The notes under the pieces: model-generated
Seen by the model: only the letters and a program-made list of their open reading frames with translations
The model's database searches: none
What the model was told of the DNA's origin: nothing
In this document: piece after piece, positions 4,959-64,000 of the stretch
Numbering within the stretch: position 1 is the stretch's first letter
Layout: each line of letters begins with the position of its first letter
Source: Burkholderiales bacterium
GTDB taxonomy: Bacteria > Pseudomonadota > Gammaproteobacteria > Burkholderiales > SG8-39
Direction of reading: 5' to 3'
Assembly (NCBI GenBank): GCA_014860395.1
Contig: JACZJU010000048.1
Location: forward strand, 1 to 64,000
Length of the DNA stretch: 64,000 nt
Made by a program: the position numbers and the translations under genes

Positions 4959-5010
4959 CAAGGAATTCGCGATGCGCGGGACGATACGTCGTGCTGCGGC
5001 GATAGAGCTT

Positions 5011-5191
5011 GCGCGGACGGCGGCCCGTCCGCGCGGATCATCGATTGTGCACGGATGAAAAGCGCATCCGTGCACAATCGATGATCTTGTATAAAAGCCC
5101 CGCAACCGCCTTTGCTTTTATCCATAACCGCGTTTTCTGTACGGATGCGTATTTATCCGTACAGAAAACGCGGTTGGCGCGCGCAGCGCGC
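5011..5191 (+). repeat. Composite palindromic element, copy 1 (order A-B-E-C-D)
   Basis: Hairpin A 5011-5034 (10 bp stem); B 5036-5057/5065-5086 (22 bp perfect); E 5091-5098/5114-5121 (8 bp); C 5126-5146/5155-5175 (21 bp perfect); D 5177-5182/5186-5191 (6 bp). Confidence 0.95.
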
Positions 5192-5228
5192 AAATCCACC
5201 GGTTGAACTAAATAACGCCGGAAAAAAC

Positions 5229-9068: not shown

Positions 9069-9206
9069 TCGTCCCCGTCCACAGGCCGGTACAAACCAGT
9101 CAGCGCAAAACGCGCAGAAAACCGGACTTGGTCTTTTGTGCCCCCCTTCCGCGTTTGTCGCGGTCGTGACCGCTGTATATCCGAATTGAAAAGAAGGGCT
9201 AGAAAC

Positions 9207-11113: not shown

Positions 11114-11141
11114 GAACTCGTTGCATACGGCGAAAGACCTA

Positions 11142-11320
11142 GCGCGCTACGCGCGCCAACCGTGTTTTCTGTACGGATGAAAAGCACATCCGTACAGAAA
11201 ACACGGTTATGAGTTTAAGCTAGGACGGGGTTACCTTTATACGAGATCGCGAAATACGCACGGATACGCTTTTCATCCGTGCGTATTTCGCGATCCGCGC
11301 GGACGGCTTTTCGTCCGCGC
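11142..11320 (-). repeat. Composite palindromic element, copy 2 (reverse orientation D-C-E-B-A)
   Basis: D 11142-11156; C 11158-11179/11187-11208 (22 bp perfect); B 11245-11265/11275-11295 (21 bp perfect); A 11297-11305/11312-11320 (9 bp). Confidence 0.95.
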
Positions 11321-11392
11321 AAAGAAGACTCTGTAACGGACGCGATTCCAGTCGCACGTATGAAAGCCGCGGCGGCTTTCACTGTTACCATT

Positions 11393-15487: not shown

Positions 15488-16753
15488 CTTCCCCCGGGCA
15501 GCGATTACATCCGCCACGGTAAGGAAGGATCCGAACACAAGGATTCTATCATTTTCGGCGGCGCCGCTGCGCGCAGCTGCATAGGCGGTCGCTGGATTTT
15601 CGAACTCGCGCACCGCGTTCACCCCCGCCTGACGCAGCGCCTGCGCCAATTCGGCCGCCTGCGCGCCCCGCGGCGGTGGCAGGCTGCAGACGAACCAACG
15701 GTCTATGTACTTTGCCAGCACGCTCACCACACCGAGTATATCCTTGTCCCGCAGCATGCCGAATACAGCCGAGGTGCCGGAGCAGGGCTCTAGATCCGAC
15801 AGATTTTGCGCGAGCACTGCGGCTGCCTGCGGGTTGTGCCCCACATCGAGCACCAGCGCGGGGTGTCCCGGCAGCAGCTGAAAACGCCCGGGCAATTCCA
15901 CCTCGGCCAAACCCTGGCGCAGTTGGCGCTCGGACACGGGCAGACGCTCGCGCAGCGTGTCCAATGCCGCCAGCGCAGCGCTCGCGTTCTGCAGCTGTAT
16001 CTTGCCGCGTAGCGCTGGGCAGGGCAAGCCGGACTTCCTGCCCGCCGGCCCCCGGAACGACCAGAGTTCGCCCTCGTCCTGGTAGCCGAAATCCTGCCCG
16101 ATGCGCAGCAATCGGGCACCCACCGCCTGCGCCTGTGCCGCTACCGACGGCGGCGCCGCCGGGTCGGCGAGCACGGCCGGTTTTTCGGCGCGGAAGATGC
16201 CTGCTTTTTCATGACCGATGGCTTCGAGCGTGGTGCCGAGGTAATCCATGTGGTCCATGCCGATGCTGGTGATGATGGCGCAATCGGCATCAAAGGCATT
16301 CACCGCGTCCAGGCGCCCGCCCATACCGACCTCAAGCACCAGCACGCCCACGGCGCTGCGCAGAAAGAGATCCACTGCGGCGAGCGTGCCGAATTCGAAA
16401 TAAGTTAGCCGATTATCGCCACTTTGCTCTGTCCTGGCAGCCTCCACCCGCGCGAACGCGGCAGCGAGCGCCGCATCATCGACCTCCCGCCGGGCGATGC
16501 GCACGCGCTCGTTGTAGCGCAGCAGATGTGGCGAAGTGTAGAGGCCGACGCGATAGCCGGCCGCCGTGAGGATCGCCTCCAACATGGCGCAGGTCGAACC
16601 TTTGCCGTTGGTGCCGGCGACCGTGATAACAGGCACCGCAGGCGCGAGACCCATCGCGACGCGCACGCGACCGACCCGCTCCAGCCCGAGGGCGATGGTC
16701 TGCGGATGCTGCCGCTCGATGTAGGCGAGCCAGCCGGCGAGGTCTTTGGGCAA
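15482..16753 (-). CDS. folC: Dihydrofolate synthase / folylpolyglutamate synthase
   Basis: TVAGTNGKGST P-loop; GMGGRLDAVNAF; FolC family. Confidence 0.95.
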   Translation of the reverse strand: MPKDLAGWLAYIERQHPQTIALGLERVGRVRVAMGLAPAVPVITVAGTNGKGSTCAMLEAILTAAGYRVGLYTSPHLLRYNERVRIARREVDDAALAAAFARVEAARTEQSGDNRLTYFEFGTLAAVDLFLRSAVGVLVLEVGMGGRLDAVNAFDADCAIITSIGMDHMDYLGTTLEAIGHEKAGIFRAEKPAVLADPAAPPSVAAQAQAVGARLLRIGQDFGYQDEGELWSFRGPAGRKSGLPCPALRGKIQLQNASAALAALDTLRERLPVSERQLRQGLAEVELPGRFQLLPGHPALVLDVGHNPQAAAVLAQNLSDLEPCSGTSAVFGMLRDKDILGVVSVLAKYIDRWFVCSLPPPRGAQAAELAQALRQAGVNAVREFENPATAYAAARSGAAENDRILVFGSFLTVADVIAARGKR

Positions 16754-16771
16754 ATTGAAACGCCGAGGAAT

Positions 16772-28163: not shown

Positions 28164-28248
28164 GCCTATTTCAAAATGAGAGGACACGTCCCCTCAAACT
28201 CCCCTAAATTGGGGGCCATTTCGGAAGCTCTGAAATGGCCTCTAAGCT
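28164..28248. repeat. Short palindromic repeat family II, copy 1
   Basis: GCCTATTTCAAAATGAGAGGACACGTCCCCTCAAACTCCCCTAAATTGGGGGCCATTTCGGAAGCTCTGAAATGGCCTCTAAGCT; two hairpins, shares sequence with 31528-31780 and 53057-53165. Confidence 0.9.
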
Positions 28249-31527: not shown

Positions 31528-31780
31528 GTATTTACCGCAAAATGAGGGGATACATCCCCTCATACTCCCCTAAGCCGGACAAGCTGGAACCAAGCACAGT
31601 GTCTCCGGCGGGGGAAAAGCCCTTATCCCACGAACAAGGGGGGATGCATCCCCCCTTGTTGATCCCCCCGCGGATGCATCGTCCCGATTTATCGAAATCT
31701 GTGCCATTTCTGTCAACTCTTGACTGATAAGAGACTAAATTAGAGGCCATTTCTTTTGTTCTGAAATGGCCTCTAAGCTT
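31528..31780. repeat. Short palindromic repeat family II, copy 2, split by an inserted segment of about 161 bp
   Basis: Left half ATGAGGGGATACATCCCCTCATACTCCCCTAA (31541-31573); right half TTAGAGGCCATTTCTTTTGTTCTGAAATGGCCTCTAA; CTAA at both junctions (31570-31573 and 31735-31738). Confidence 0.85.
31634..31659. repeat. 26 bp perfect palindrome inside the segment interrupting family II copy 2
   Basis: ACAAGGGGGGATGCATCCCCCCTTGT. Confidence 0.95.
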
Positions 31781-37173: not shown

Positions 37174-37233
37174 GGGCGCATGCGGGTTATCCCATGTGGA
37201 AACATGCCCGGACGCGGGGCGCTGACAGAACTT

Positions 37234-37413
37234 GCGCGGACGGCGGCCCGTCCGCGCGGATCGTCGATTGAGCACGGTTGAAAACCACATCCGTGCTCAA
37301 TCGACGATCATGGATAAGACCCCAAAGCTTTATTCCCTTCATCCAGAACCCTGTTTTTCGGACGGATGTGCTTTTGATCCGTCCGAAAAACAGGGTTGGC
37401 GCGCGAAGCGCGC
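37234..37413 (+). repeat. Composite palindromic element, copy 3
   Basis: A 37234-37257; B 37259-37277/37291-37309 (19 bp) plus a near-loop mismatch; C 37347-37367/37377-37397 (21 bp perfect); D 37399-37413. Confidence 0.95.
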
Positions 37414-37474
37414 AATAGCCGCGCACCGACGTTGGCGGAAATAGCGCGATGCCCGGACGGGCGACAGTGATCTT

Positions 37475-39571
37475 CTAGAACTTGTACCTCACCGACAGCC
37501 TGACTACGTTTACGTGATACTGCGGCGCCTGCAGGCCCAGCGTCAATACGTTCGGGATGGTGGCGGGGGCGACGCCGTCTAGCATCCAGTCCTTGCTGTC
37601 GTAGCGTTCATACCAATAGCCGGCCTGCAGCGACATGTTTTCCTTCATGCGATACGTGGCGTAGAGCTTCAGGCTGTCGAGATTGGCGGAGATGCCCGGG
37701 AACGCCGGATTCGACGCACCCGTGTAGACACTGATTTCGCTGCGCGAGCGCGTAATGCCGTAATCGGCGCCGATGTCGAGCTTGTCCGGGATCGCTGCGT
37801 GCTTCACACCCAGGCCGTAGGTGTCAATCGTATCTTTGCTGTCGGCAGACCAATCCGGGACCGAGTAGGTCTGGCTGCCGGCCTGTTTGGACTTGATCTC
37901 CTGGCGGTTCGCGAAAACGTGCATGCTGGTCCGCTCCGTCAGAACCATAGACACATCGCCATTCAGGTTCAGATCCTTGCCGCTGGTCAGGCCGATGGTC
38001 GAATCCTTGTATTTGTCCTCGGACGAATCGAATCCCAGCCCGAGATTGACGTTTTCCGCAAGGGCAATGTCGGCACGCAGTCCAACGGTTTCGCGCGTGC
38101 GGTTCGCCATATTGAATCTTCTCAGCAGCGGGTTCTCCGCAGGGGTGATCTCCGGGTTCCACTGGATGGAACCCTGGTTCCTGCGCTCGCCATGCGCGAA
38201 CTTGAACGTCAGGTCGATCTTGTCCGTAATGCGCGAACTGAGCTTGCCCCAGGCCGTATCCTCGCGGGTCTTCTCGATCTCCTGATAAGTGCGCTCATGC
38301 GCATCGAAATCCGCGCCGATCGAGCCCCGCAGCCGCGCCGAGGCCCGGTAATCGGCGCTTAGCTTCAATTTGTCCTGCTTGAAGCTGTAGGGCTGGTTGG
38401 TTCTGGGCAAGCCGACGAACATATCGGTCGCCACCGAAGGGTAGGCCGCCTGCGGTGTCTGATTGTCGCGATCGTTATGCAAGTATGCCGCGTTGAGGCG
38501 CAGCCGGTCGGTCACCGCGGAGCTCAGTTTCAGGTTCGCGTCCAGCGTGTTTGCGCGGGCGTTGAGCGACGCCCCCGGCAGGCCCGCGACAACCAGCGTG
38601 GCATTCTGCGTGGACGCGAGGAAGCTGTCGTTCTGCGTCATGCGGCCGAAAGCGATGTCGGCGCTGCCGCGCGTCTTGTCGCTGAACTGGTATCCCGCCG
38701 AGGCCGAGACCTGGTGAAACTGGTTGTCCGGCGGCAACGCGAGTTGGCCCAGCGTCTCGCCGTTGATCGCCGTATACGGATCCTGCCAGGTCAGCGCGTG
38801 ATTGTCGTTGCGGAATTTCGATCCGTAATACGCGAGTTTCAGCTGAAACTTCTTGCCGGCGTACGAGGCCGATGCGTCCACCTGGTCGGTAACGTAATCC
38901 ACCGGCTCGACTAACTGTGCCGTGTTGACGAAGAACGCGCCGCCGGTGCGCAGTATGTTGCCCTCTTTGGTATCGTGGCGAAAGTTCACCGCGTATTCCC
39001 ACTCCTTGCTGCGGTTCCAGGAAGCGCCCACGCCAAGCTGATTCCTTTGCGTGTACAGATCGACCTGCTGCAGCGTTCCAGCCACGGGCATTGCGTCCGT
39101 CGTCGCCGCGGGGAAGCCGGCCGGCAGGCTCAGCGACGCGCCGCCGCTCCCGCCGAAAGGCGTCAGCGCTCCGTCCCAGATACGATGCGGCGTCTCGTCG
39201 TACTTGAGGCGCAGCTTGTAGGTCCCCTGCTTTCCGCCTTCGACATTCAGGCCGCGCGAGTCCAGCCCGAGATCGGACGCATCGAGATTCCAGTAGGTCC
39301 CGTCTTCGCCGCGCGAGCGCACCGCGGCGTCGCCGATAGCGAAACCGCCTTTTTCGTAGAGCCCGTTGTATTGACCGAATTCGGCTGAGTTGTCCGAGAC
39401 CGAACCGGCACCCACTTCCAGCGTGCCGCTGACCCCGGTCTCGAATTTGCAGGACTCGCATTTCCACTTCGAGGTATCGACGGCTGCGGGTCCGGCGCCG
39501 TCCGCCGCCGTCGCGGTCGCAGACAATGCCGACAGCATGCCGAGCAGAAGCAGTTGATTCGAAGTCTTCAT
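37475..39571 (-). CDS. MtrB/PioB-family decahaem-associated outer membrane beta-barrel
   Basis: 698 aa, signal peptide, N-terminal CxxC (KWKCESCKF), alternating beta-strand pattern, C-terminal RLSVRYKF; adjacent to an MtrA-type cytochrome. Confidence 0.92.
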   Translation of the reverse strand: MKTSNQLLLLGMLSALSATATAADGAGPAAVDTSKWKCESCKFETGVSGTLEVGAGSVSDNSAEFGQYNGLYEKGGFAIGDAAVRSRGEDGTYWNLDASDLGLDSRGLNVEGGKQGTYKLRLKYDETPHRIWDGALTPFGGSGGASLSLPAGFPAATTDAMPVAGTLQQVDLYTQRNQLGVGASWNRSKEWEYAVNFRHDTKEGNILRTGGAFFVNTAQLVEPVDYVTDQVDASASYAGKKFQLKLAYYGSKFRNDNHALTWQDPYTAINGETLGQLALPPDNQFHQVSASAGYQFSDKTRGSADIAFGRMTQNDSFLASTQNATLVVAGLPGASLNARANTLDANLKLSSAVTDRLRLNAAYLHNDRDNQTPQAAYPSVATDMFVGLPRTNQPYSFKQDKLKLSADYRASARLRGSIGADFDAHERTYQEIEKTREDTAWGKLSSRITDKIDLTFKFAHGERRNQGSIQWNPEITPAENPLLRRFNMANRTRETVGLRADIALAENVNLGLGFDSSEDKYKDSTIGLTSGKDLNLNGDVSMVLTERTSMHVFANRQEIKSKQAGSQTYSVPDWSADSKDTIDTYGLGVKHAAIPDKLDIGADYGITRSRSEISVYTGASNPAFPGISANLDSLKLYATYRMKENMSLQAGYWYERYDSKDWMLDGVAPATIPNVLTLGLQAPQYHVNVVRLSVRYKF

Positions 39572-39657
39572 GTTTTGGTCCTGTATTGGTTCCGGCGCAA
39601 TGTGCTACATGCATCGGCCGGCACTGAAACTTCCTTTTCGATCTTTCTCATCCCCGG

Positions 39658-40656
39658 CTAGCGCATCAGCTTGGCGCCAGACGGGTGGTTCGAGCCGTGA
39701 ATCTGCGAATGGCAGTTCAGGCAACTACCCGCAAGCAGGAAGGCCTCCCCGCCGGCGCCGCCGCCCGGCAATCCGTCCGGAGTGCGCGCCACCGAAGGAT
39801 GGCCCGCCACCGAATGGCATTGCTGGCACAAGAGCGGCGGCATCTTCTTCAACCTTGCCGGATTGACCGACCCGTGCGGGTGGTGGCACAAGGTGCAGTC
39901 CTCGGCCACCGGCGCATGCTCCCACAGGAACGGTCCGCGCTTTTCTGCGTGGCAGGTGTAGCAGGTCTGATTCACCGTCGGCTTGATCAGCATGCCGCTG
40001 CTGGTCGACCCATGCGGGCTGTGGCAGTCGCTGCACGCCATCTTGCCGAAGCGCACCGGGTGCGTGGACGGCTTGGAGAAGTCCGCGCGCTCCTTCCTGT
40101 GGCACTTGTAGCAAACCTCCGGCTGCGTGGCCGTCGCCAGAACCGGGTCGCGTTCGGCATGGATTTTGTGGCAATCGCTGCACGCCACATTGTTGGCATC
40201 GTGCGTGCTCGCATGCCAGCCGATGCGCGCATTGTTCTCGTGACACGCCAGGCAGAACTTGTTGCGCTGCTGCGGGGTCAGGAACGAGCTGGACTTGAAG
40301 CTGTTGATGCCGTCCGGGCCGCCGCCGTTGTCGGCGTGCTTTTTTCCGGGACCGTGGCAGGCCTCGCATTGCAGGTTTCCCGGCGCAAAGGGCGCGCGCT
40401 TGTCCGCGCGGTTGGCGTGCTTGGTCTTGAAAATCGCGAACACTGGATAGCCGCCGCCTTCGACGTGGCACATCAGGCAGGTGTCCGCGCCTGTTTCGGT
40501 GTATTCCGTTCCCAGGCTGGGCGGGGGCGGCGGCGGCTCGGCAGCCTTGGCAGGTTCCGCGTCGGCTGCGGCAGCGCTGAACGAAACGCCCGACAACAGA
40601 AGCAGCGCGGCGAATAATGTTTTCTTGATAGTCATCGTTGTCTGTCCGTTAGCCAT
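39658..40656 (-). CDS. MtrA/DmsE-type periplasmic decahaem c-type cytochrome
   Basis: 332 aa from MANGQTTMTIKKTLFAALLLLSG; ten CxxCH motifs counted; next to the MtrB-like gene. Confidence 0.93.
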   Translation of the reverse strand: MANGQTTMTIKKTLFAALLLLSGVSFSAAAADAEPAKAAEPPPPPPSLGTEYTETGADTCLMCHVEGGGYPVFAIFKTKHANRADKRAPFAPGNLQCEACHGPGKKHADNGGGPDGINSFKSSSFLTPQQRNKFCLACHENNARIGWHASTHDANNVACSDCHKIHAERDPVLATATQPEVCYKCHRKERADFSKPSTHPVRFGKMACSDCHSPHGSTSSGMLIKPTVNQTCYTCHAEKRGPFLWEHAPVAEDCTLCHHPHGSVNPARLKKMPPLLCQQCHSVAGHPSVARTPDGLPGGGAGGEAFLLAGSCLNCHSQIHGSNHPSGAKLMR

Positions 40657-40700
40657 GGTTCTTGTTGATCCCTGATACCCGCGCGCATCAGCCCTGGCGC

Positions 40701-43067
40701 TTACTTCACGCCGTGCACCGTCTTGACATCCAGCACCTTGCCGGCCCCGTGGCAGAAAGCGCAAGCCTCCGGCACGGCTGCCGCGATTGCCGCCTGCGTC
40801 ACAGAGAATTTCCCGGCGGGAAAGGTATCCTGCATATGCAGCTTCACCGATGCGCTGTCGTGGCAGGACGAGCACACCGCCGCGGTCGGCGAGATTCTGA
40901 GGTTGTCCGCGGGATCGGTCGCCGAGGCGCCGGTTCCGATCGTGGTCCCGAGAATGCCGTTGGCTGTCGGCGCGCTCCAAGTCCCCGTCAGCTGGTAGGA
41001 GGTGCCGGCATGGCAGGCCGAGCAGTCATTCAATTTTCCGGGGAAAACCACGGCGCTGAAATCGTTCACGCTGCCGCCGAAGCCATACACCGTGATCCCG
41101 GTCGTGCGGAATCCGCCCTTGTCCGCCTGTCCCGCATGGATGGCATGGATCATCGTCTTGAAGTCGATCGATTCTTCCAGCTTGCCGTCGGCGCCGCCGG
41201 TGAGCGCGCCGGGAGCACCCGGACGCCGGCTCGCATCGGTCGCGTCCGGATTGTGGCAAACCACGCAGACACCGGGTTCGTCGGTGCGGTTGTTGCCGTG
41301 CAAGCTCAGCACGTCATGGCAGACGTTGCACTTGGCCACGTCGACCACCGTCCGTCTCGCAACGACGGTGCCGGTAATCGCGGCATCCTTGAACGCGCTC
41401 TTGACCTTCAGCCGGTCGGTAAACGTCCCCGCGGTGGTGACGTCTCCGGCGGGATGCCCATCGATCGTGACCCGCAGCGTGCCCGTTTGGGCGGTAGGGA
41501 TGGCGACCGTCGAAGTGACGGTGTAAGTGCCGTCCCCGACCGCCACCGAATTCGCCAGGGCGTCGATGCTGACCGGCTGGCCGAAGCTTGCGCCGCTGCC
41601 CTCATTGCCTAAATCGAGCTTCCCGTTTTCGTTCCAGCCGATGCTGACGGCCAGCCTGCTGCTGCCGTCCGCCGTTTGCGTGAAGTGCGGGTCGGTCTTG
41701 ATGTCGTAGGGTGCATCCGCGTTGGTCGGGTCGGTGACGGAGAAGGTAACGACCGGCTTCGCCCCCGCCGTCGTGGGCGTGACGCTGAGGACGCTGTACT
41801 TGAACTTGGCGGAGGCCGCTTTGAACCTTTCCGGGAAGTTGTGCGCGAGGGCAATATCCTTATTGTCAGGAAACTTCCCTGCCGCATGGCACACCACGCA
41901 GGCGCTGCTGTCGGTCATGACGCCGCCCGAATGCGGCTTCGTCTGATACGGCTTGGCCGGATCGGAGCTTGCGCCGAAATACACGTCGTCGTGGCAGGCG
42001 CCGCAGGCATCCATGTTCGGCTGGGTCTTCCAGTTGTCGCCCTGGGCGGTGGCGTTCGACGCGCCCGGCGTGCCGTCGTGGCACTTGCTGCAGTTGCGCA
42101 CATCCTGCGGGAAGGCAGCATTGGAAAAATCGGTGCCGTTGACCACGTAGGGCGTGCCCGCAAGCACGCTGGGCAACGCGGCGCCGTCATGAATCTTGTG
42201 GATCATCACCTTGAAATCCACAGTCGTGTTGGGCGTCCCGGCGACCCAGGACCCCGGGTTGTGGCAGGTGACGCATAACTTGGTGTCGACGCGCGTGCCA
42301 TGCGCCTCGAGTTCGTTGTGGCAGGCGTTGCACTTGGCCGTGGCGACGATATCGCGTTTGCTTGCGACCGCGCCGCCCCCCGGCACAAAATCATACACGC
42401 CGGCTGCCTTGGGATACGCGTTGTTGCCCTGCTGAATCGTGACGCGATGGGTCAAGCCGGGCTGATAGCTGATATCGAGCGCTTTGCCGTTTGCGTCGGT
42501 ACACGGCGCCGGGCAGGAATTCGCGGCGGGATTCGTGATGTCGGTGGCAAACGTATAGGTGTAGCTGCCGTCGCCGTGATTCGACAGCGAGCCGAAAGCG
42601 TAGCCGGTAGCCGAGCGCTCCTGGCTACCCTGCACCGCCCCGCTCCTGGCCCGGTTGATATAGTTCTGCCAGGCGCTGGGAGCGCCGTTCGACCCCGGCG
42701 AGAGCTTGGCGATGTTGAAGCGCAGGTCCGCGGCAACAAGGCCCGACATGCCGGCGCCGGCCTGGTTGGTGACGGTGAAGTTCACCACCGGCGGGCTGTT
42801 GATGGTCACCGACGTGATGTTCACGTTCAGCGCGCTGGAGGCGGCCAGTGCTGCCGCACCAGCGGCAAGTCCGTCCGTCGCTCCGCCCGTTCCCGCGCCA
42901 GCCGAACCGCCACTGGATCCGCCACCGCAACCGGCCAATGCCAACACCAGCATGCCGGCCGCCAAACCCTGAATGAAGTTCCCGGTTCTCCGGATGGACC
43001 AGACCTTCGGCCTCCCACCTTGAAGTGCAAGGCCGGTCCAGCGAAACGACAATCGATGCTCGGTCAT
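40701..43067 (-). CDS. OmcA/MtrC-family decahaem outer-surface lipoprotein cytochrome (1)
   Basis: Lipobox LALAGC, ten CxxCH motifs, C-terminus CAFCHGAGKVLDVKTVHGVK. Confidence 0.92.
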   Translation of the reverse strand: MTEHRLSFRWTGLALQGGRPKVWSIRRTGNFIQGLAAGMLVLALAGCGGGSSGGSAGAGTGGATDGLAAGAAALAASSALNVNITSVTINSPPVVNFTVTNQAGAGMSGLVAADLRFNIAKLSPGSNGAPSAWQNYINRARSGAVQGSQERSATGYAFGSLSNHGDGSYTYTFATDITNPAANSCPAPCTDANGKALDISYQPGLTHRVTIQQGNNAYPKAAGVYDFVPGGGAVASKRDIVATAKCNACHNELEAHGTRVDTKLCVTCHNPGSWVAGTPNTTVDFKVMIHKIHDGAALPSVLAGTPYVVNGTDFSNAAFPQDVRNCSKCHDGTPGASNATAQGDNWKTQPNMDACGACHDDVYFGASSDPAKPYQTKPHSGGVMTDSSACVVCHAAGKFPDNKDIALAHNFPERFKAASAKFKYSVLSVTPTTAGAKPVVTFSVTDPTNADAPYDIKTDPHFTQTADGSSRLAVSIGWNENGKLDLGNEGSGASFGQPVSIDALANSVAVGDGTYTVTSTVAIPTAQTGTLRVTIDGHPAGDVTTAGTFTDRLKVKSAFKDAAITGTVVARRTVVDVAKCNVCHDVLSLHGNNRTDEPGVCVVCHNPDATDASRRPGAPGALTGGADGKLEESIDFKTMIHAIHAGQADKGGFRTTGITVYGFGGSVNDFSAVVFPGKLNDCSACHAGTSYQLTGTWSAPTANGILGTTIGTGASATDPADNLRISPTAAVCSSCHDSASVKLHMQDTFPAGKFSVTQAAIAAAVPEACAFCHGAGKVLDVKTVHGVK

Positions 43068-43231
43068 GATTACCCTTTGTTGGAGGACACATCGCTCCTC
43101 CGCTCGAACAACCCCGAAAAAGCACGGAGCGTTACGAAATTCACAGCGGCTACGCGACGTTGAAACCCGTTCCGAATCCTAATTCAGATCGGTTCATGTT
43201 GCAAATGCAAACCACCGTGTTTCCAGCCTTG

Positions 43232-43645
43232 TCATCGACTGGCGCCCGCCTTTTTCAGCTTCTCCAGTTTGGCCGCGCTGGCCGCATTCTGCTTCGCGAT
43301 CACGCGTGATTTGAGCGCGTCGTAGCTCCCCGGCGACACGATGTTTTCAGTCAGCAGATCGGCCTTGCTGAGGTAAGGCCGGCCGGCGATGATCTTGTCG
43401 GCGTCCGCGTCCTTGATGCCCGGCAGCTTCTTCAGTTCTGCCTTGCCGGCGCTGTTGATATCGACGGGCTTGGCCCGTGCTTTGGCTTTGTTTGCCTTGG
43501 CGGCTTTGTCGTTGGACGCTTTGCCTTTGCTGATTGCTTTCGTTTCTGCGCCCGGTCCGGTCGTACTATCGGCTGCAAAGGAGGGGCTGGCGCACAGCAG
43601 CAGTGCTGCGGCTATGAATGCGGATGAGATGATGCTGCGTTGCAT
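43232..43645 (-). CDS. Exported ComEA-like helix-hairpin-helix protein
   Basis: Signal peptide MQRSIISSAFIAAALLLCASPSFAA; VDINSAGKAELKKLPGIKDADADKII HhH motif. Confidence 0.88.
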   Translation of the reverse strand: MQRSIISSAFIAAALLLCASPSFAADSTTGPGAETKAISKGKASNDKAAKANKAKARAKPVDINSAGKAELKKLPGIKDADADKIIAGRPYLSKADLLTENIVSPGSYDALKSRVIAKQNAASAAKLEKLKKAGASR

Positions 43646-43728
43646 AAAGAATCTCCGGGAATTGATTAGATGACAATCCTGTAGCAAACATGACCGGCGT
43701 GCCCGATATTCCGGACGCGCATAACATG

Positions 43729-43763
43729 AAAAAAAGACCCGGAAGCGTTGCCGCCTCCGGGTC
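43729..43763 (-). terminator. Intrinsic terminator after OmcA/MtrC-like gene 2
   Basis: Minus strand GACCCGGAGGCGGCAACGCTTCCGGGTCTTTTTTT. Confidence 0.92.
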
Positions 43764-43836
43764 ATCTTTTGCTTCAGTTGCCGGTGCTCGGAAAACCGTG
43801 CCCCGGCTTGCTTACCGTGACCAAACCTCGGTCACG

Positions 43837-46269
43837 CTATTTCGCGTGCTGGACCTTGATATCCACCAGCTTGCCGGAACCATGGCAGAACAGGCAGTTC
43901 TCAGTCTTCAACATCGCCGTCGAGCGAGCCTCGTAAATCGAACCGCCGCCGTCCTGGCTCATGTGCGTCTGCGCGGTGCTGCTGTCGTGGCAGGAGAAGC
44001 ATGCCGCCGCGATCGGCGAGTTCACCAGGTTCGTGGCCGCAGCCGGCGTGGTAGGCGTCCAGCTGGCCCCATAGGCGGTACCCGCTGTCTGCGCGATGTA
44101 CGGCGATGTGTCGAAGGTCGCAGTCACAGTCGTGCCCTCGGCCACAGTCCTGTACAAGCGATTGGGCACCGCAGCCGCATTGTCGGTCCCGCTGAAGTCA
44201 TACGAGCCAGCCACGTGACAGGTTTCGCAGTTCTTCAAGATCCCCGGGTATGCAACCATGGAGTAGTTGTAAGCCGCAGACGACGCAGTCCAAGTGAACG
44301 GCACGGTGCGCTTGCTCGCGCCGTGGATGCCGTGAATGAACGCGCTCGAATCCCAGGACCAACCGCTGTTCGTGCCGGCATTGGGGTTGTGGCAGAACGC
44401 ACAAATTGTTGCGTCGTTCCTGGCACCGCCGTGGAAGTTCGGGTCGACCCCAAGCTGATCGTGGCACTTGCTGCACTTGGCGGTTTCCACGATAGCGCGA
44501 CGGCCCGTATAGCCGGTCGCCACCTTGGTGACTATCGGCGTCGAAAGGCCCAGGCCAGCCGGATACGCAGCCAGGTTCATCTGCGTGAAAGAGTAACCCA
44601 CGAACGCCGTGACCATCGACGCGTTGTCAGGAATCGTTGTCGTATGGGTCACAGAGTAATAGCCGTCAGCGTCAGGGCCAGTCAATCCGCCCGTTCTCCA
44701 AGGACCAGTGGTCGAATTCAAAGTCACACCGCTGGCGCTACCACCGGCGTTGTTGAAGTCGGCGGGAGCGGTGATGCCGTCCTGCGGCTGTGAATAGGCC
44801 AGGTAGATGCGCGGGCCGTCATTGAAGTCGGTGATCATCTGGGTCGCGCCCGTCGTGAACGGGTTAAGCGTCACCACAGCCCCGTCTTTCAGGATTCTGA
44901 ACACGACAGTGGCTTTCTTCGCTCCGGAAGCACCGGCCACCGTGACATCTTTGATTTCATAGCTGAACTTGGCTGCGCCCGCGGGCAGGTTGCTCTGTGA
45001 CGTTTCGCCGCTTGCGACCGCGACGTGAACGGTTGGGATATTCGTCGCGGTGTGGCAGATATGGCAGGCGCTGTCATCCGTCTGAATGCCGCCTACGTGG
45101 CCGTAGGTCGACTCCGTGATGCCACCGGCTTCCGCATCGGCGATGGTCAGGCCTTTGCCGGTAGCAAAATTAATGCCGGCATGGCAGGAGCCGCAAGCGG
45201 CGCGGCTGGGAACGCTCTTCCAGTTGTCGGCCTGCGCTGCCTTGGTGTTGTCGTGGCACTTGGTGCAATTGGCAAGCGACTGCGGGAAACCGACTTCGGC
45301 GTAGTCGTTCTCGCCATCTCGGTAGCCCCAGATGGTGTAGTCCGTGCCGAACCATGATTTCAGGTGTTCTCCGGCATGGATCTTGTGCACCATGATGCGG
45401 AAGTCGAGGACGTTGCCGCTGTTCGCGTCGGTGGTGCCGGCGTTGTGGCACAGCACGCAGTACTGCGTATCGATGCGCCCGCCGCCGTGCAGCGCCAGTT
45501 TCTCGTGGCACTCGTTGCAGGACGTGATGTCGACCACCTTGTGGTCCAGGCTGGTGTCGGTGACCGCCACGGCTTTGCCGTCGGTGCCGATGGTGAAGTC
45601 GAAATAGGGATTGGCCAACACCGTGGCGCCAGCGGCGTTCGTATAGCTCAGCTGGATCGCGACGCGATGCGTTTTCGTCGGGTCATACCCCGTGGCCGCG
45701 GTGATGTCGGTGCTGAATGTGTACGTGTAGTAACCGGCGTCGTTATAGACCAGAGAGCCCTCGGCCTCCGTGTCGGTCGTGGCCTGCGTGGCGGTTGCCA
45801 GAGCGGGCGTGCCGCCGGGGCCTACGCCAGCCGTGGCCGTTTCGGTGCGTGTGGTGTAGCTCACCCATTGGTCGGGAGTTCCGCTGGTCCCCTTGTCAAG
45901 CCTGGCGATGATGAAAGCCACGTTGCTCAAGGTCAGGTCTTTCTTTACCGCGCCGTCGGAAATCACGGTGAAATTGACTTTGGGCGGGCTGTTGACGGTC
46001 ACCGGCGCAATGCCGGCGTCCTGTACGACGGCGAATGCAGCGGTCGGTGTGGTTCCAGTGTCATTGGCGGCAACTGCAGCGGCCGCTGTGATTGCCGCAG
46101 CGGCAGTGGCGGGAGTACCGCCGCCAGTGGCAGGCGGCGGCGTCGTGGTGGTATCACTGCTGCTACTTCCGCCGCATCCGGCCAAGCCGAGCGCGAGCAA
46201 GCCCGCCGCGGCAAAATTGACCCAGCGATACGAAGTGCGGGTCTTACTTAACAGATTTGAGTACTTCAC
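43837..46269 (-). CDS. OmcA/MtrC-family decahaem outer-surface lipoprotein cytochrome (2)
   Basis: GTG start VKYSNLLSKTRTSYRW, lipobox LGLAGC, ten CxxCH motifs, C-terminus CLFCHGSGKLVDIKVQHAK. Confidence 0.92.
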   Translation of the reverse strand: MKYSNLLSKTRTSYRWVNFAAAGLLALGLAGCGGSSSSDTTTTPPPATGGGTPATAAAAITAAAAVAANDTGTTPTAAFAVVQDAGIAPVTVNSPPKVNFTVISDGAVKKDLTLSNVAFIIARLDKGTSGTPDQWVSYTTRTETATAGVGPGGTPALATATQATTDTEAEGSLVYNDAGYYTYTFSTDITAATGYDPTKTHRVAIQLSYTNAAGATVLANPYFDFTIGTDGKAVAVTDTSLDHKVVDITSCNECHEKLALHGGGRIDTQYCVLCHNAGTTDANSGNVLDFRIMVHKIHAGEHLKSWFGTDYTIWGYRDGENDYAEVGFPQSLANCTKCHDNTKAAQADNWKSVPSRAACGSCHAGINFATGKGLTIADAEAGGITESTYGHVGGIQTDDSACHICHTATNIPTVHVAVASGETSQSNLPAGAAKFSYEIKDVTVAGASGAKKATVVFRILKDGAVVTLNPFTTGATQMITDFNDGPRIYLAYSQPQDGITAPADFNNAGGSASGVTLNSTTGPWRTGGLTGPDADGYYSVTHTTTIPDNASMVTAFVGYSFTQMNLAAYPAGLGLSTPIVTKVATGYTGRRAIVETAKCSKCHDQLGVDPNFHGGARNDATICAFCHNPNAGTNSGWSWDSSAFIHGIHGASKRTVPFTWTASSAAYNYSMVAYPGILKNCETCHVAGSYDFSGTDNAAAVPNRLYRTVAEGTTVTATFDTSPYIAQTAGTAYGASWTPTTPAAATNLVNSPIAAACFSCHDSSTAQTHMSQDGGGSIYEARSTAMLKTENCLFCHGSGKLVDIKVQHAK

Positions 46270-46404
46270 TCTGGCCCCCTTTTCTTGCGAGTTAGCGTTA
46301 TACGGCGATCGATCCAGATTCAGCGTGAATACGGGCCCCAACACTAATGGCCTGCGCACTCATCCCGAAGTGTACGGAAATTACTCCCTTAAATAAAGGT
46401 CTAT

Positions 46405-46418
46405 TTGATCTAGATCAA
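46405..46418. promoter_or_regulatory. FNR/ANR-type box upstream of cytochrome 2
   Basis: TTGATCTAGATCAA, perfect match to TTGAT-N4-ATCAA, 136 bp upstream of the start. Confidence 0.8.
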
Positions 46419-46557
46419 AAGGAACCATTGAACCTTATTTCCGCCTCGCGATCCCCCGATCTTAGGATTACTCCTACGCATTGCGCGATCGAAGTTGCTG
46501 ATGGCGCCCCTGCTGGAAACCGGCGCCGGACTGGCCACGGCATGCCGAGCCTGCACG

Positions 46558-46590
46558 AAAAAAACCCGGAAGCGTCGCCGCTACCGGGTT
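46558..46590 (-). terminator. Intrinsic terminator in the cytochrome 3/cytochrome 2 intergenic region
   Basis: Minus strand AACCCGGTAGCGGCGACGCTTCCGGGTTTTTTTC. Confidence 0.9.
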
Positions 46591-46712
46591 GTTAGGAGAA
46601 GCAGGGCGCCGCCAATGGCAACCTCCTTCAGGTTCGCCGATCATCTCTCCCTGGGCGACAGCCGCTTCCCGCCAAATACTCGTCTACACCAAATCTCTTA
46701 CACCCCAAAAGA

Positions 46713-46740
46713 ATAAGGCGAGCCGATCGGCTCGCCTTAT
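46713..46740. terminator. 28 bp perfect palindrome, probable terminator
   Basis: ATAAGGCGAGCCGATCGGCTCGCCTTAT; on the minus strand followed by TCTTTTGGGG. Confidence 0.75.
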
Positions 46741-46774
46741 CCCCAAGGAATCATGGGACCAAACTTCTGAAACA

Positions 46775-46803
46775 AGCGAGGCGGGCCTAGGGCCCGCCTC
46801 GCT
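46775..46803 (-). terminator. Stem-loop directly 3' of cytochrome 3
   Basis: AGCGAGGCGGGCC-TAG-GGCCCGCCTCGCT, 13 bp perfect stem. Confidence 0.75.
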
Positions 46804-46810
46804 CCTTTCC

Positions 46811-49279
46811 CTACTTGAAGACTGCCATCACCTTCGCAACCGTGGCATCCCAAAGAGTATCTACGTTCTCCAGGAGATAACCATTCTGCTTCCAATGCTG
46901 GAACAGTGTTACCAGCCCACCCGCATCGTCAGCAATGATCTTGCTGCTACGGTGGCACGCTCCGCACGCTGTTGCAGCAGGGCCGGTGACATACGAAGGT
47001 ACGGTACCGATGTTCCTGGTCTTGCCCGTCAGCGAATCAGACGCCGACAACAGACCCGGCAAGGACTTGGACTGGTCCGATACTCCATACATACCCGACA
47101 CATGGCAGGATTCGCAGTCTGTCGTTCCCGCACCACCCGCGCCAAACCTCGGGAATTCGGTGCCGGTGTGATGCGTGTATTCCATCGCTTCGAACGTGTC
47201 GGCGAAATTGATGTCACCGATGTCGAAGTACTGGAACGTGTGGATCGCATGCACATAGGAGTCGATCGAGCGCGACTGCATTTCCAGATGCGAGCCGCCA
47301 GAGGACTTCACGTGGCAGAGCCTGCAGACCTTGATGTTACCGCCCCTGTCTCCGGAATGGAAAGTGGTCGCAAGCTGGTCGTGGCAGGTGTTGCAGCCCT
47401 TGGTCGCCGCATAACCAGACGAGGTCGTTACGGCAGTCCCCGCCACGTTCACGATATCGCTGAAGTAGGTAACAAAAGCGTTCGTGGTCAGATCAAAGGT
47501 CTTGGAAGGCGCGTCGAGCCCAACGGTGTCGCCGTTGGCATCCTTCAGCGCAGGCATAACAGCGATCTCCGCGCGCTTGATCGTTTTGTCGGTAATCATG
47601 TCCGCCCACGCCGACAGGTCCGCCGTCACTTCCCAGCTGCCGCCCGCGGCCGAAACCGTCGTGAAACGCGGATTGGTAGCTCCAACGACATATTCCAGCA
47701 GCCTGTTGCCGTCGGCATCCCGACCGTGCGCCTGCACGATGAAGTCCTTCGTGTTGTAGCCATACAGGCCGACCATGACGGTAGGCGTGATGCTGCTTGC
47801 CGTAAGGCTTCCCACCGTACCGGTCGCGCTGAACTTGACGTCGAGCACGTTGGTGGTGGCATCGAACGTTGCGCTGTCGATGGTTACCGGGAAGCTGGTG
47901 GAATACCTGACGCCAGCACTGGTATAGATCTTCGGATCATAGCCGCCGGTGTGTATCGTCTTGAACGAGGGAGCAGTCGCACCGTCATGACACAGGGTGC
48001 AATTCGCCGCAGTCAAAGTTGCCGCGTCCGTGACATAGCTGCTGTGGTTGTATGCAGCCGCTTTCATCTTGTCTGTTATGCCATTGAACGCGTGGCAGCT
48101 AATGCAGGTTTCTCCTCTGAAATTAGCAGACTTGAATATCCCCGTGGTTTCGTCCATCTTGCCTGCATGACAGGCTACGCAGTTTCTCATCGACTGCGGA
48201 TAGGCGAATTCCATGGCGTGCGACATATGCACGTCGTTCATCAGCCTGGCTTTATAGCCATATTTGGTGTCTTCCGCGGCCGTAGTGGCGCCGCCATCGT
48301 TTACCGCGACAGCGCGATCGCGCAGAGCCTGGCCCGCGGCGGTCGTCGGATCGGCGTCTTTTGCTTCCTTCAAGAGCTGCCAGAATTCATGGCCGCCGGT
48401 ACGGGCGTCAGAGTGACAGCCTTTGCAGACATAGAACTGCTGCGTGGTGTTCGCGGCAGCGCCCGGCGTCAGGTCGTTGACCGTGCCGTAGATGTAGGCA
48501 TGCTTGAGGTAAGGTTGGGTGTGGCAGCTTTCGCAGCCCGAGACATTCGCGGCGGAGGTGTAAGGCGCCGTCGCAGCACCCATTTGCGGGCCTAGTCTGA
48601 GGACGGCCGCAAACGGGTACTTGCCTTTGTTCATGTGTTTCGCGGAGATCGTTTCGACTATCTCGTCCACGCCATACAGCTGGATGATGCCATTCGCGGT
48701 AGCGATGCTGGCGTTTGCGGCTATGTCTGCCGCGGCGGTAAACGTCTTTTTCATCGTGCAGACGCCGGCCCCGACATAGGTCTTGGTACCTGCCAAACTC
48801 AGATAGCTGGGTTCCACTGCCGCTTGAAACCTGCTTGCAGTAGCGTCATAAGCTGCCCAGTAGCTCCCGAGCGAGTCGGCTGCGGTGCAATCGAATGCTG
48901 CGCCACTCTTGGTCATGGTGAATGTCAGCGTGCTCGTGTCATTTGCCGTCGTGGTCGTGCTTACGGCGTACGACAAAGCCGTGACTTTGATGACGCCGTT
49001 TTGATAGAGCTCATTATAGCTTTCCTGGTGTCCCGGGCCTGAACGGGCGGTCGCCGCGGCCAAGGTGCCGGTATGGCACAGCGCGCAAGTCTCACCACCC
49101 GTTGCGGCGGCCAGCGCTACAGCTTCTGCCGTAGGCGGCGTCACAATAGCGGTAGACGCGGCTGGAACAGCAGGCGTGCCACTGTCGCTGCTACTGCTGC
49201 TTCCGCCGCAAGCGCCCAGCGTGCCGAGCATCAGCGCGGCAGCGCCCCATCTAAACAATGTGGGTATCGTCATTTTCAT
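46811..49279 (-). CDS. OmcA/MtrC-like decahaem lipoprotein cytochrome (3), divergent
   Basis: SD GGGGAGCAATAT-ATG; lipobox LGTLGAC; ten CxxCH motifs; C-terminus differs from the other two. Confidence 0.88.
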   Translation of the reverse strand: MKMTIPTLFRWGAAALMLGTLGACGGSSSSSDSGTPAVPAASTAIVTPPTAEAVALAAATGGETCALCHTGTLAAATARSGPGHQESYNELYQNGVIKVTALSYAVSTTTTANDTSTLTFTMTKSGAAFDCTAADSLGSYWAAYDATASRFQAAVEPSYLSLAGTKTYVGAGVCTMKKTFTAAADIAANASIATANGIIQLYGVDEIVETISAKHMNKGKYPFAAVLRLGPQMGAATAPYTSAANVSGCESCHTQPYLKHAYIYGTVNDLTPGAAANTTQQFYVCKGCHSDARTGGHEFWQLLKEAKDADPTTAAGQALRDRAVAVNDGGATTAAEDTKYGYKARLMNDVHMSHAMEFAYPQSMRNCVACHAGKMDETTGIFKSANFRGETCISCHAFNGITDKMKAAAYNHSSYVTDAATLTAANCTLCHDGATAPSFKTIHTGGYDPKIYTSAGVRYSTSFPVTIDSATFDATTNVLDVKFSATGTVGSLTASSITPTVMVGLYGYNTKDFIVQAHGRDADGNRLLEYVVGATNPRFTTVSAAGGSWEVTADLSAWADMITDKTIKRAEIAVMPALKDANGDTVGLDAPSKTFDLTTNAFVTYFSDIVNVAGTAVTTSSGYAATKGCNTCHDQLATTFHSGDRGGNIKVCRLCHVKSSGGSHLEMQSRSIDSYVHAIHTFQYFDIGDINFADTFEAMEYTHHTGTEFPRFGAGGAGTTDCESCHVSGMYGVSDQSKSLPGLLSASDSLTGKTRNIGTVPSYVTGPAATACGACHRSSKIIADDAGGLVTLFQHWKQNGYLLENVDTLWDATVAKVMAVFK

Positions 49280-49477
49280 ATATTGCTCCCCAGTTTTGAA
49301 AACCACCAACACGACTTCGAAATAAACCATGCGACCGGCAATGTTCCTCGTTATTTCCCTTTTTGCCTTGCCATTCAGTCGGTCTTGACGTCACGCCCGC
49401 GCCTGCCTATCTGCGCCTGAATACCGCTGGACGGACAACTTCCTTTCCGAAGGGTACCTATCGCAGCCAATAGCTTT

Positions 49478-53056: not shown

Positions 53057-53165
53057 GCCTATTTCAAAACGAGGGGATATCCCCTGCGGGGACTTCTTTC
53101 AGGGCGCCTCCTCTCATACTCCCCTAAACCAGGGGCCATTTCGTTAATTCTGAAATGGCCTCCTA
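53057..53165. repeat. Short palindromic repeat family II, copy 3
   Basis: GCCTATTTCAAAACGAGGGGATATCCCCTG...CTCATACTCCCCTAAACCAGGGGCCATTTCGTTAATTCTGAAATGGCCTCCTAG. Confidence 0.88.
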
Positions 53166-61412: not shown

Positions 61413-61464
61413 ACCAACTCCAGATACTGCGAATTGATACTGCCGCATGCCAAGAGAAACCTTT

Positions 61465-61646
61465 GCGCGCTGCGCGCGCCAACCGTGTTTTTGGTACGGA
61501 TAGAAACCATCCGTACCAAAAACACGGTTATGGATAAAAACGAAGGCGGCTTGGGGTGATTTTTATCCAAGATCGTTGATTGTGTGTGGACGTGCTTTTC
61601 ATCCGCACACAATCGACGATCCGCGCGGACGCGGCGCCGTCCGCGC
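61465..61646 (-). repeat. Composite palindromic element, copy 4 (reverse orientation)
   Basis: D 61465-61479; C 61481-61501/61509-61529 (21 bp perfect); E 61532-61540/61560-61568 (9 bp); B 61571-61591/61601-61621 (three imperfect positions); A 61623-61631/61638-61646. Confidence 0.95.
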
Positions 61647-61722
61647 AAGTGCCAACGATCCTTCGCCGCCACATCGCAACGTCGCAATAACGGGAGACAT
61701 CGATTTAAGTCGCCAAGCATCA

Positions 61723-63885: not shown

Positions 63886-63959
63886 GCTGTTTCCTTCCAT
63901 TCTATGACCTGGCGATCTGATCTGTATTGCGCGCTCTACCTCCGCGGGCTTGTGCTGTT

Positions 63960-64000
63960 GCGCGGACGAGAAACTGTCCGCGCGGATCGTCAATTGCGCG
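63960..64000 (+). repeat. Composite palindromic element, copy 5, truncated by window end
   Basis: A stem GCGCGGAC (63960-63967)/GTCCGCGC (63976-63983) followed by GATCGTCAATTGCGCG, the start of hairpin B. Confidence 0.85.

Follow-up and report, generated by a model that had tools for sequence, protein, structure and literature searches.

A composite hairpin repeat of about 185 bases, found in five copies (four full and one at the edge) in a 64-kb stretch of DNA, was identified as a real and apparently undescribed repeat family that is likely mobile. The stretch, hereafter the window, is C93:1-64000 of a metagenome assembly of 4.42 Mb in 336 contigs. The reading that we favour, with somewhat better than even confidence, is that of a non-autonomous palindromic repeat family working like the REPIN/BIME elements, by the mechanism proposed below.

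An earlier note on this DNA had listed four full copies and one partial copy, and all five were found, with conserved edges 2 bp beyond those it gave (Table 1). The ends of the copies are sharply conserved (TTGCGCGG...GCGCGCAA), and the four full copies, aligned in one orientation, measured 183–186 nt with a mean per-column identity of 86%. The anatomy described there (A, B, spacer, C, D) was borne out by fold and alignment. Its claim of the same hairpin order in every copy holds only after reverse-complementing; on the plus strand copies 2 and 4 read D-C-spacer-B-A. The unit is an inverted pair, in which a short GC hairpin A with the 22-bp B and the 21-bp C with a short D lie on either side of the AT-rich spacer. 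A+B and C+D are two inverted units with a common stem top, CGGAT...ATCCG, so that the proposed large inverted repeat of smaller ones takes the form of an inverted pair of two-hairpin units.

Table 1. Copies of the composite repeat in the window, parts of copy 1, and two empty sites (bp positions in the window)
Feature	Position	Strand	Context or structure
Copy 1, full A-B-spacer-C-D	5009-5193	+	dnaJ (ends 4958, +) / cysS (ends 5229, -), convergent gene ends
Hairpin A of copy 1	5011-5034	+	GCGCGGACG...CGTCCGCGC, 9-10 bp; 99% of cells paired
Hairpin B of copy 1	5036-5086	+	22-bp stem, 7-nt loop, GATC...GATC; both-side changes at 17/22 pairs
AT-rich spacer of copy 1	5087-5125	+	weak own stem TATAAAAGC / GCTTTTATC (helix 3, 76% of cells paired)
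Hairpin C of copy 1	5126-5175	+	21-bp stem, AACC...GGTT; both-side changes at 15/21 pairs
Hairpin D of copy 1	5177-5191	+	GCGCGC...GCGCGC, 6 bp
Copy 2, full, inverted	11140-11322	-	convergent gene ends
Copy 3, full	37232-37415	+	convergent: APH-type kinase gene / MtrB/PioB gene
Copy 4, full, inverted	61463-61648	-	tandem genes: sugar-kinase-like gene, then class II aldolase gene
Copy 5, cut by window edge	63958-64000	+	runs on to contig position 64139
Empty site X	16746-16771		filled in G010, G011, G014 (degenerate) and G016; empty here and in G012, G019 and G021
Empty site Y	9069-9195		filled in G010 and G011 (orthologous); three fully compensated stem changes

Folded as DNA, copy 1 reached -81.8 kcal/mol, against -35.5 ± 3.5 kcal/mol for dinucleotide shuffles (z -13.2, 0/200), and the RNA fold of copy 3 gave z -11.9 against dinucleotide shuffles. 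In a mechanical hairpin scan, every stem of at least 16 bp in the 64 kb was a B or C hairpin of the composite repeat. The stem claimed for the spacer is real and weaker than the hairpins, with pairing in 76% of cells and both-side changes at 5/9 pairs. Weak outer extensions flank some copies. The intergenic DNA of the window holds another repeat, CCTCTCATACTCCCCTAAACCAGGGGCCATTTCGTTAATTCTGAAATGGCCTCTAA, which is unrelated to the first and has a hairpin of 14 bp, at 28181-28245, 31555-31576, 31712-31776 and 53101-53162; it also occurs at the copy-2 site in congener G013 (L205) and adjoins a composite element at C132:32656.

A covariance model built from the four copies gave at least 146 matches in the genome, both strands counted and at most 150 candidates scored. 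A pattern joining hairpin A to the B foot had 62 matches genome-wide, against 0 for a control pattern, and with copies beyond the window the repeat came through the whole-genome scan that the earlier note had set as a check. The flanks of the pattern matches were taken, and 73 D and 67 A hairpins were chained into 66 loci, 31 of them solitary A-B-spacer-C-D units and the others arrays, e.g. D-A, D-A-D or D-A-D-A. Across these loci the D-to-A linker was mostly 54–62 nt (mode 58) and the A-to-D gap mostly 126–136; the array period was about 243 bp, the orientation was head to tail throughout, and arrays began and finished in either phase. Sampled copies of the genome diverged by 21% on average and by 10% in the closest pair, and no pair more than 90% identical was found among them; the copies are old and near-identical pairs are lacking. 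The head-to-tail arrays with a constant 58-nt linker, the weak outer extensions and this extreme copy diversity were absent from the earlier note. No gene-carrying version was found among the 66 loci. A pair of elements on C169, considered as an autonomous gene-carrying version, was rejected, as it flanks a replication/ribosomal gene cluster.

With the covariance model, the repeat was detected in 15/15 genomes of the genus, with counts that are mostly lower bounds. Family-wide, matches were patchy (25/100 genomes, 7/26 genera), and among 400 genomes of the order, with few candidates scored per genome, the own family alone matched. The A-hairpin pattern gave 108 and 84 matches in two genomes of the genus and at most 8 elsewhere, about the control level. 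Collections of phages, plasmids and viral contigs held no match. Divergent relatives in genera g2 and g9 retain the layout of short and long hairpins with different stem sequences, and the long stems keep CGGAT...ATCCG at their top across genera. The g14 matches, all on one short contig, are probably mis-binned, and the g17 match is a different long-hairpin sequence. Canonical elements were seen on a 3.4-kb contig (G053:C39, L267), probably mis-binned, of a genome of another genus that is otherwise without them. In another genus of the family a different very long hairpin family, CTCCTGTTTTTCGAAGGGGTCGC... and CTCCGGCTCTTGCACGGGTC..., was observed with short hairpins beside it (L161, G056:C143).

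The comparison of filled and empty sites in relatives, as proposed in the earlier note, showed differences at copies 1 and 2 and at both X and Y. Copy 1 has an orthologous copy in MERK01000166.1 (L043), and its site is empty in three other relatives (L044–L046). The intergenic gap at copy 2 measures 279 bp here against 26–66 bp in 11/12 congeners; in the twelfth, a gap of 138 bp holds another repeat. The extra length at copy 2 is about 240 bp, nearer the array period than 185. At the dnaJ-cysS site the phase is A-B-spacer-C-D in this genome and G010, and C-D-linker-A-B in G019 and G017, a difference that would fit half-unit loss or gain via direct-repeat recombination. Besides copy 1, four of the tested G010 elements match an element at the same place here, and most are without counterpart among the element loci of this genome (G000). 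From the filled and empty sites, together with the G010 elements lacking a counterpart, it follows that the set of sites turns over between species, yet single insertions can be common to several species. Presence and absence could partly reflect loss. The compared empty sites, which are highly diverged, yielded neither a target-site duplication nor an exact junction.

Copy 1 and its orthologue share 94% identity, against about 86% in the flanking genes. The idea that elements are generally more conserved than their flanking genes was rejected, with means of 81% and 87%, respectively, over four pairs, two of these being arrays or pairs in which the matching of units is uncertain. Just 3' of dnaJ, two different betaproteobacteria (L042 and L049) have a third repeat-like motif in common, CCTTGCGGCGgAGGCTGAC...GCGGCCGTAGCCACA.

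Pairing is preserved in the stems while their sequence changes. Over 52 elements and 67 stem pairs, standard pairing was present in 95% of cells. Both-side changes were found at 39/67 pairs, compared with 17.4 in shuffles (0/500 as high) and 13–19 in slid structures, and compensatory cells numbered 229 against 64.5 in shuffles. Because related sequences inflate shuffle tests, the comparison of copies at the same site matters: among 294 pairs from same-site copies, 28 double changes were compensated, where the per-site rate predicts about 2, with some sites being arrays of uncertain unit orthology. Were one transcript strand under selection, G·U would be expected to outnumber A·C, and the overall data do not show this, the single-sided half-changes being 38 G·T and 33 A·C (p 0.64). 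In hairpin C alone, 14 half-changes were G·T and 4 A·C (p 0.03). Insertion orientation in tandem gene contexts was the same in 10 cases and opposite in 13. Since G·T and A·C half-changes are about equal and orientation is unbiased, pairing seems to be kept mainly at the DNA level and not in one transcript. The cause at that level may be selection for hairpin or cruciform recognition, or template switching in the palindrome; both fit the data equally.

The repeat is placed at the 3' ends of genes. In contexts taken from a simple home-made gene caller, 31 of the 56 classifiable loci were convergent, 23 tandem and 2 divergent, against 5, 41 and 4 among 50 gene pairs of the window (Fisher p 6e-7). 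Copy 1 was moved manually into the convergent class because cysS lies on the minus strand. All but two loci (54/56) are downstream of at least one gene. None is clearly inside a gene; at the locus on C149 the overlap with a called gene exceeds 60 bp. An intrinsic terminator was rejected, with consensus matches few, mostly to sub-hairpins, and none at copy 3. The window also contains, at 37475-49330, an MtrB/PioB outer-membrane porin gene and an adjoining stretch of related direct repeats, whose translations, judged by eye, appear rich in CXXCH haem motifs; this is a possible extracellular electron transfer cluster.

Three Y1 transposase genes were found in the genome: one of IS200 type, broken, on C130, and two that are RAYT-like, on C23 and C126 (NF047646, E 2e-18 and 3e-14, both under the curated cut-off). 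Y1 genes were present in 12/15 congeners. The search for RAYT/Y1 linkage suggested in the earlier note was negative. No composite repeat adjoins the three genes of this genome, and across the 15 congeners and 9 relatives none comes closer than about 300 bp to a Y1 gene. By model or hairpin search in the own genus and relatives, 0 of about 40 Y1 loci were flanked by the repeat, with one chance neighbour in L173, and a RAYT partner by linkage was rejected. In one congener, G012, with a completeness of 89%, at least 26 copies were counted and no Y1 gene was matched. The positive control was a RAYT-like gene (L186, G021:C357) flanked by 24-25-bp hairpins, TCGCGAGCAAGCTCGCTCCTACGAT..., at 1363-1416 and 1970-2025, which we take to be REP-like; its presence in G021 reflects either horizontal transfer or a mis-binned contig. 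The RAYT-like proteins of the genome carry NHVH and YIELNP motifs, which match those of RAYT subclass 2.1, a subclass with no associated REP reported (PMC6006769). These motifs make the C23 and C126 proteins candidate mobilisers, as a lead only. An identical 35-nt hairpin, CCAGCTTGAAGTCGCAATTTGCGACATCAAGCTGG, was observed 5' of a RAYT-like gene in two species (L011 826-860, G000:C126; L193 1052-1086, G023:C351), where it sits inside an upstream open frame.

In the mechanism that we propose, the hairpins would extrude from single-stranded DNA, e.g. at the replication fork, and whole units would occasionally be moved by a structure-recognising enzyme (a single-strand nuclease or transposase) whose gene lies elsewhere. 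Units would then be copied or lost locally through direct-repeat recombination. Pairing would persist because the hairpins are required by the enzyme, or because one arm is rewritten from the other by template switching inside the palindrome, and the purging of harmful insertions in genes and promoters would leave those at convergent gene ends. The suggestion in the earlier note of a non-autonomous repeat agrees with the high copy number, the lack of a gene and the filled and empty sites; its mobility is put no higher than likely, as there is no linked transposase, no target duplication or junction and no GTAG or CGTC tag, and the copies are old and diverse. The repeat may even represent a novel type of DNA moved through its hairpins, with a fixed hairpin pair (short GC plus 22 bp) as the unit of recognition in place of a tagged single REP and with a single-strand nuclease as the mover, the RAYT-like Y1 proteins of the genome being one candidate; this we consider unlikely.

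Several features would also be expected of an RNA element acting in cis at the 3' ends of mRNAs, with 21-22-bp hairpins that block exonucleases or serve as RNase III sites, as in Neisseria NEMIS/Correia, with selection for pairing in the transcript. The placement of nearly all loci downstream of a gene, the very stable RNA folds, the strong covariation and the lean of hairpin C towards G-U agree with such an element, for which the established RNase III processing of Correia transcripts is a precedent (PMC10969869). We nevertheless judge it rather unlikely, as G-U-type half-changes are not favoured over A-C overall, there is no orientation bias relative to transcription, and close relatives lack the repeat at the same genes. 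The symmetry of half-changes at the DNA level, the enrichment between convergent genes and the conservation of the CGGAT...ATCCG stem tops across genera are in turn consistent with a host DNA-level element at convergent gene ends (a cruciform, gyrase, IHF or nucleoid site, like BIMEs as supercoil sinks) of which mobility is incidental. Its patchiness in the family and high turnover between congeners, which manage without the repeat at the same sites, make this explanation decidedly unlikely.

Two other mobile readings fared worse still. That the repeat is a true REPIN, mobilised in trans by one of the RAYT-like Y1 transposases of the genome, is improbable: such genes are there (C23 and C126, with Y1 genes in most congeners) and the inverted doublet is that of REPINs (PMC3116915), but the Y1 loci are without flanking copies although the scan found REP-like hairpins at L186, the feet have no GTAG/GTGG, the stems reach 21-22 bp, and G012 maintains its copies with no Y1 match. 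A MITE of a DDE-type insertion sequence, with its terminal inverted repeats in the outer extensions, is very improbable. The extensions of some solitary copies, and of the orthologous copies at site X, resemble a degenerate inverted repeat (GGCGACTTGAAT... / ...ATTCAAGACGCC), and the insertion of about 240 bp at copy 2 would agree with a MITE; the similarity of the extensions is, however, barely above background, a scan for the putative terminal repeat with two mismatches allowed gave 306 matches against 163 in the control and indicated no parent element, and no target duplication was seen.

On the preferred reading of a REPIN/BIME-like, non-autonomous repeat, a palindromic repeat family is added whose stems are twice as long as usual and which lacks both a guide tag and a linked transposase. 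Since dozens of copies occupy sites that are empty in neighbouring species, it becomes testable how palindromic repeats without a tag spread and what keeps their arms complementary. That G·T and A·C half-changes are equally frequent bears on whether covariation of this kind is a sign of functional RNA, and RNA-discovery pipelines should take warning, as they would rate these hairpins as strong RNA candidates. In these metagenome assemblies the repeat also causes contigs to break.

Compared with known repeat kinds, the window had 0 Rfam matches at the gathering threshold, the sub-threshold matches being generic long hairpins, and no published description was found in the open-access literature. 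The view of the earlier note that no named family fits is upheld by Rfam and by the GTAG and CGTC definitions, and for Correia/NEMIS and ERIC it extends as far as a comparison via Rfam. attC sites have R/L core sites with extrahelical bases beside an integron integrase, unlike the perfectly paired stems here. MITE-type traits are the ends TTGCGCG/CGCGCAA and the weak outer inverted extensions, the empty sites compared being too diverged to show duplication. Correia/NEMIS and ERIC-type MITEs are likewise transcribable, intergenic, non-coding palindromes, of 100-250 bp (PMC10969869), but they are single terminal-inverted-repeat hairpins, whereas four hairpins in fixed order are present here. The BRE repeat is also betaproteobacterial and intergenic and forms variable-number tandem arrays; at about 90 bp, and mainly in Alcaligenaceae and Comamonadaceae, it is set apart by its description (PMC3110155). 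TIRYT repeats, which are long self-complementary TIR families around RAYT-like genes, share the long, sometimes double-palindromic form in dimers and clusters (PMC3733652); they flank their own transposase genes, which the composite repeat does not, and the GGGGWSAS motif described for some of these families was not seen here.

CGTC REPs have an 8-9-bp stem, a terminal CGTC and a CCA tail, and rarely cluster (PMC3733652). The composite repeat resembles them in its head-to-head dimers, structured spacers and lack of a dedicated transposase gene (PMC3733652), and differs in that the alignment shows neither terminal CGTC nor CCA tail and that clusters are common. GTAG REPs are defined by a GT[AG]G tetranucleotide 0-2 nt 5' of the hairpin foot (PMC6006769). 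On both strands of the alignment and flanks this tag is absent, the feet of A, B, C and D reading CTT, CGCG, CAT and GGTT or their opposite-strand equivalents. Unlike REPIN/BIME, the repeat has two-hairpin units with perfect stems of 21-22 bp, against 5-13 bp in GTAG REPs, flanks no RAYT gene, and has genome copies that differ by at least 10%. It shares with REPINs the inverted doublet of palindromic units around a spacer able to pair, in intergenic DNA (PMC3116915, PMC2817692, PMC3733652), and with BIMEs the alternating palindromic units, the few linkers of constant length and the arrays seen among the 66 loci. REPIN/BIME-like too are its convergent or tandem placement at gene 3' ends, its compensatory changes, its species-specific families and its tandem clusters that take in flanking sequence.
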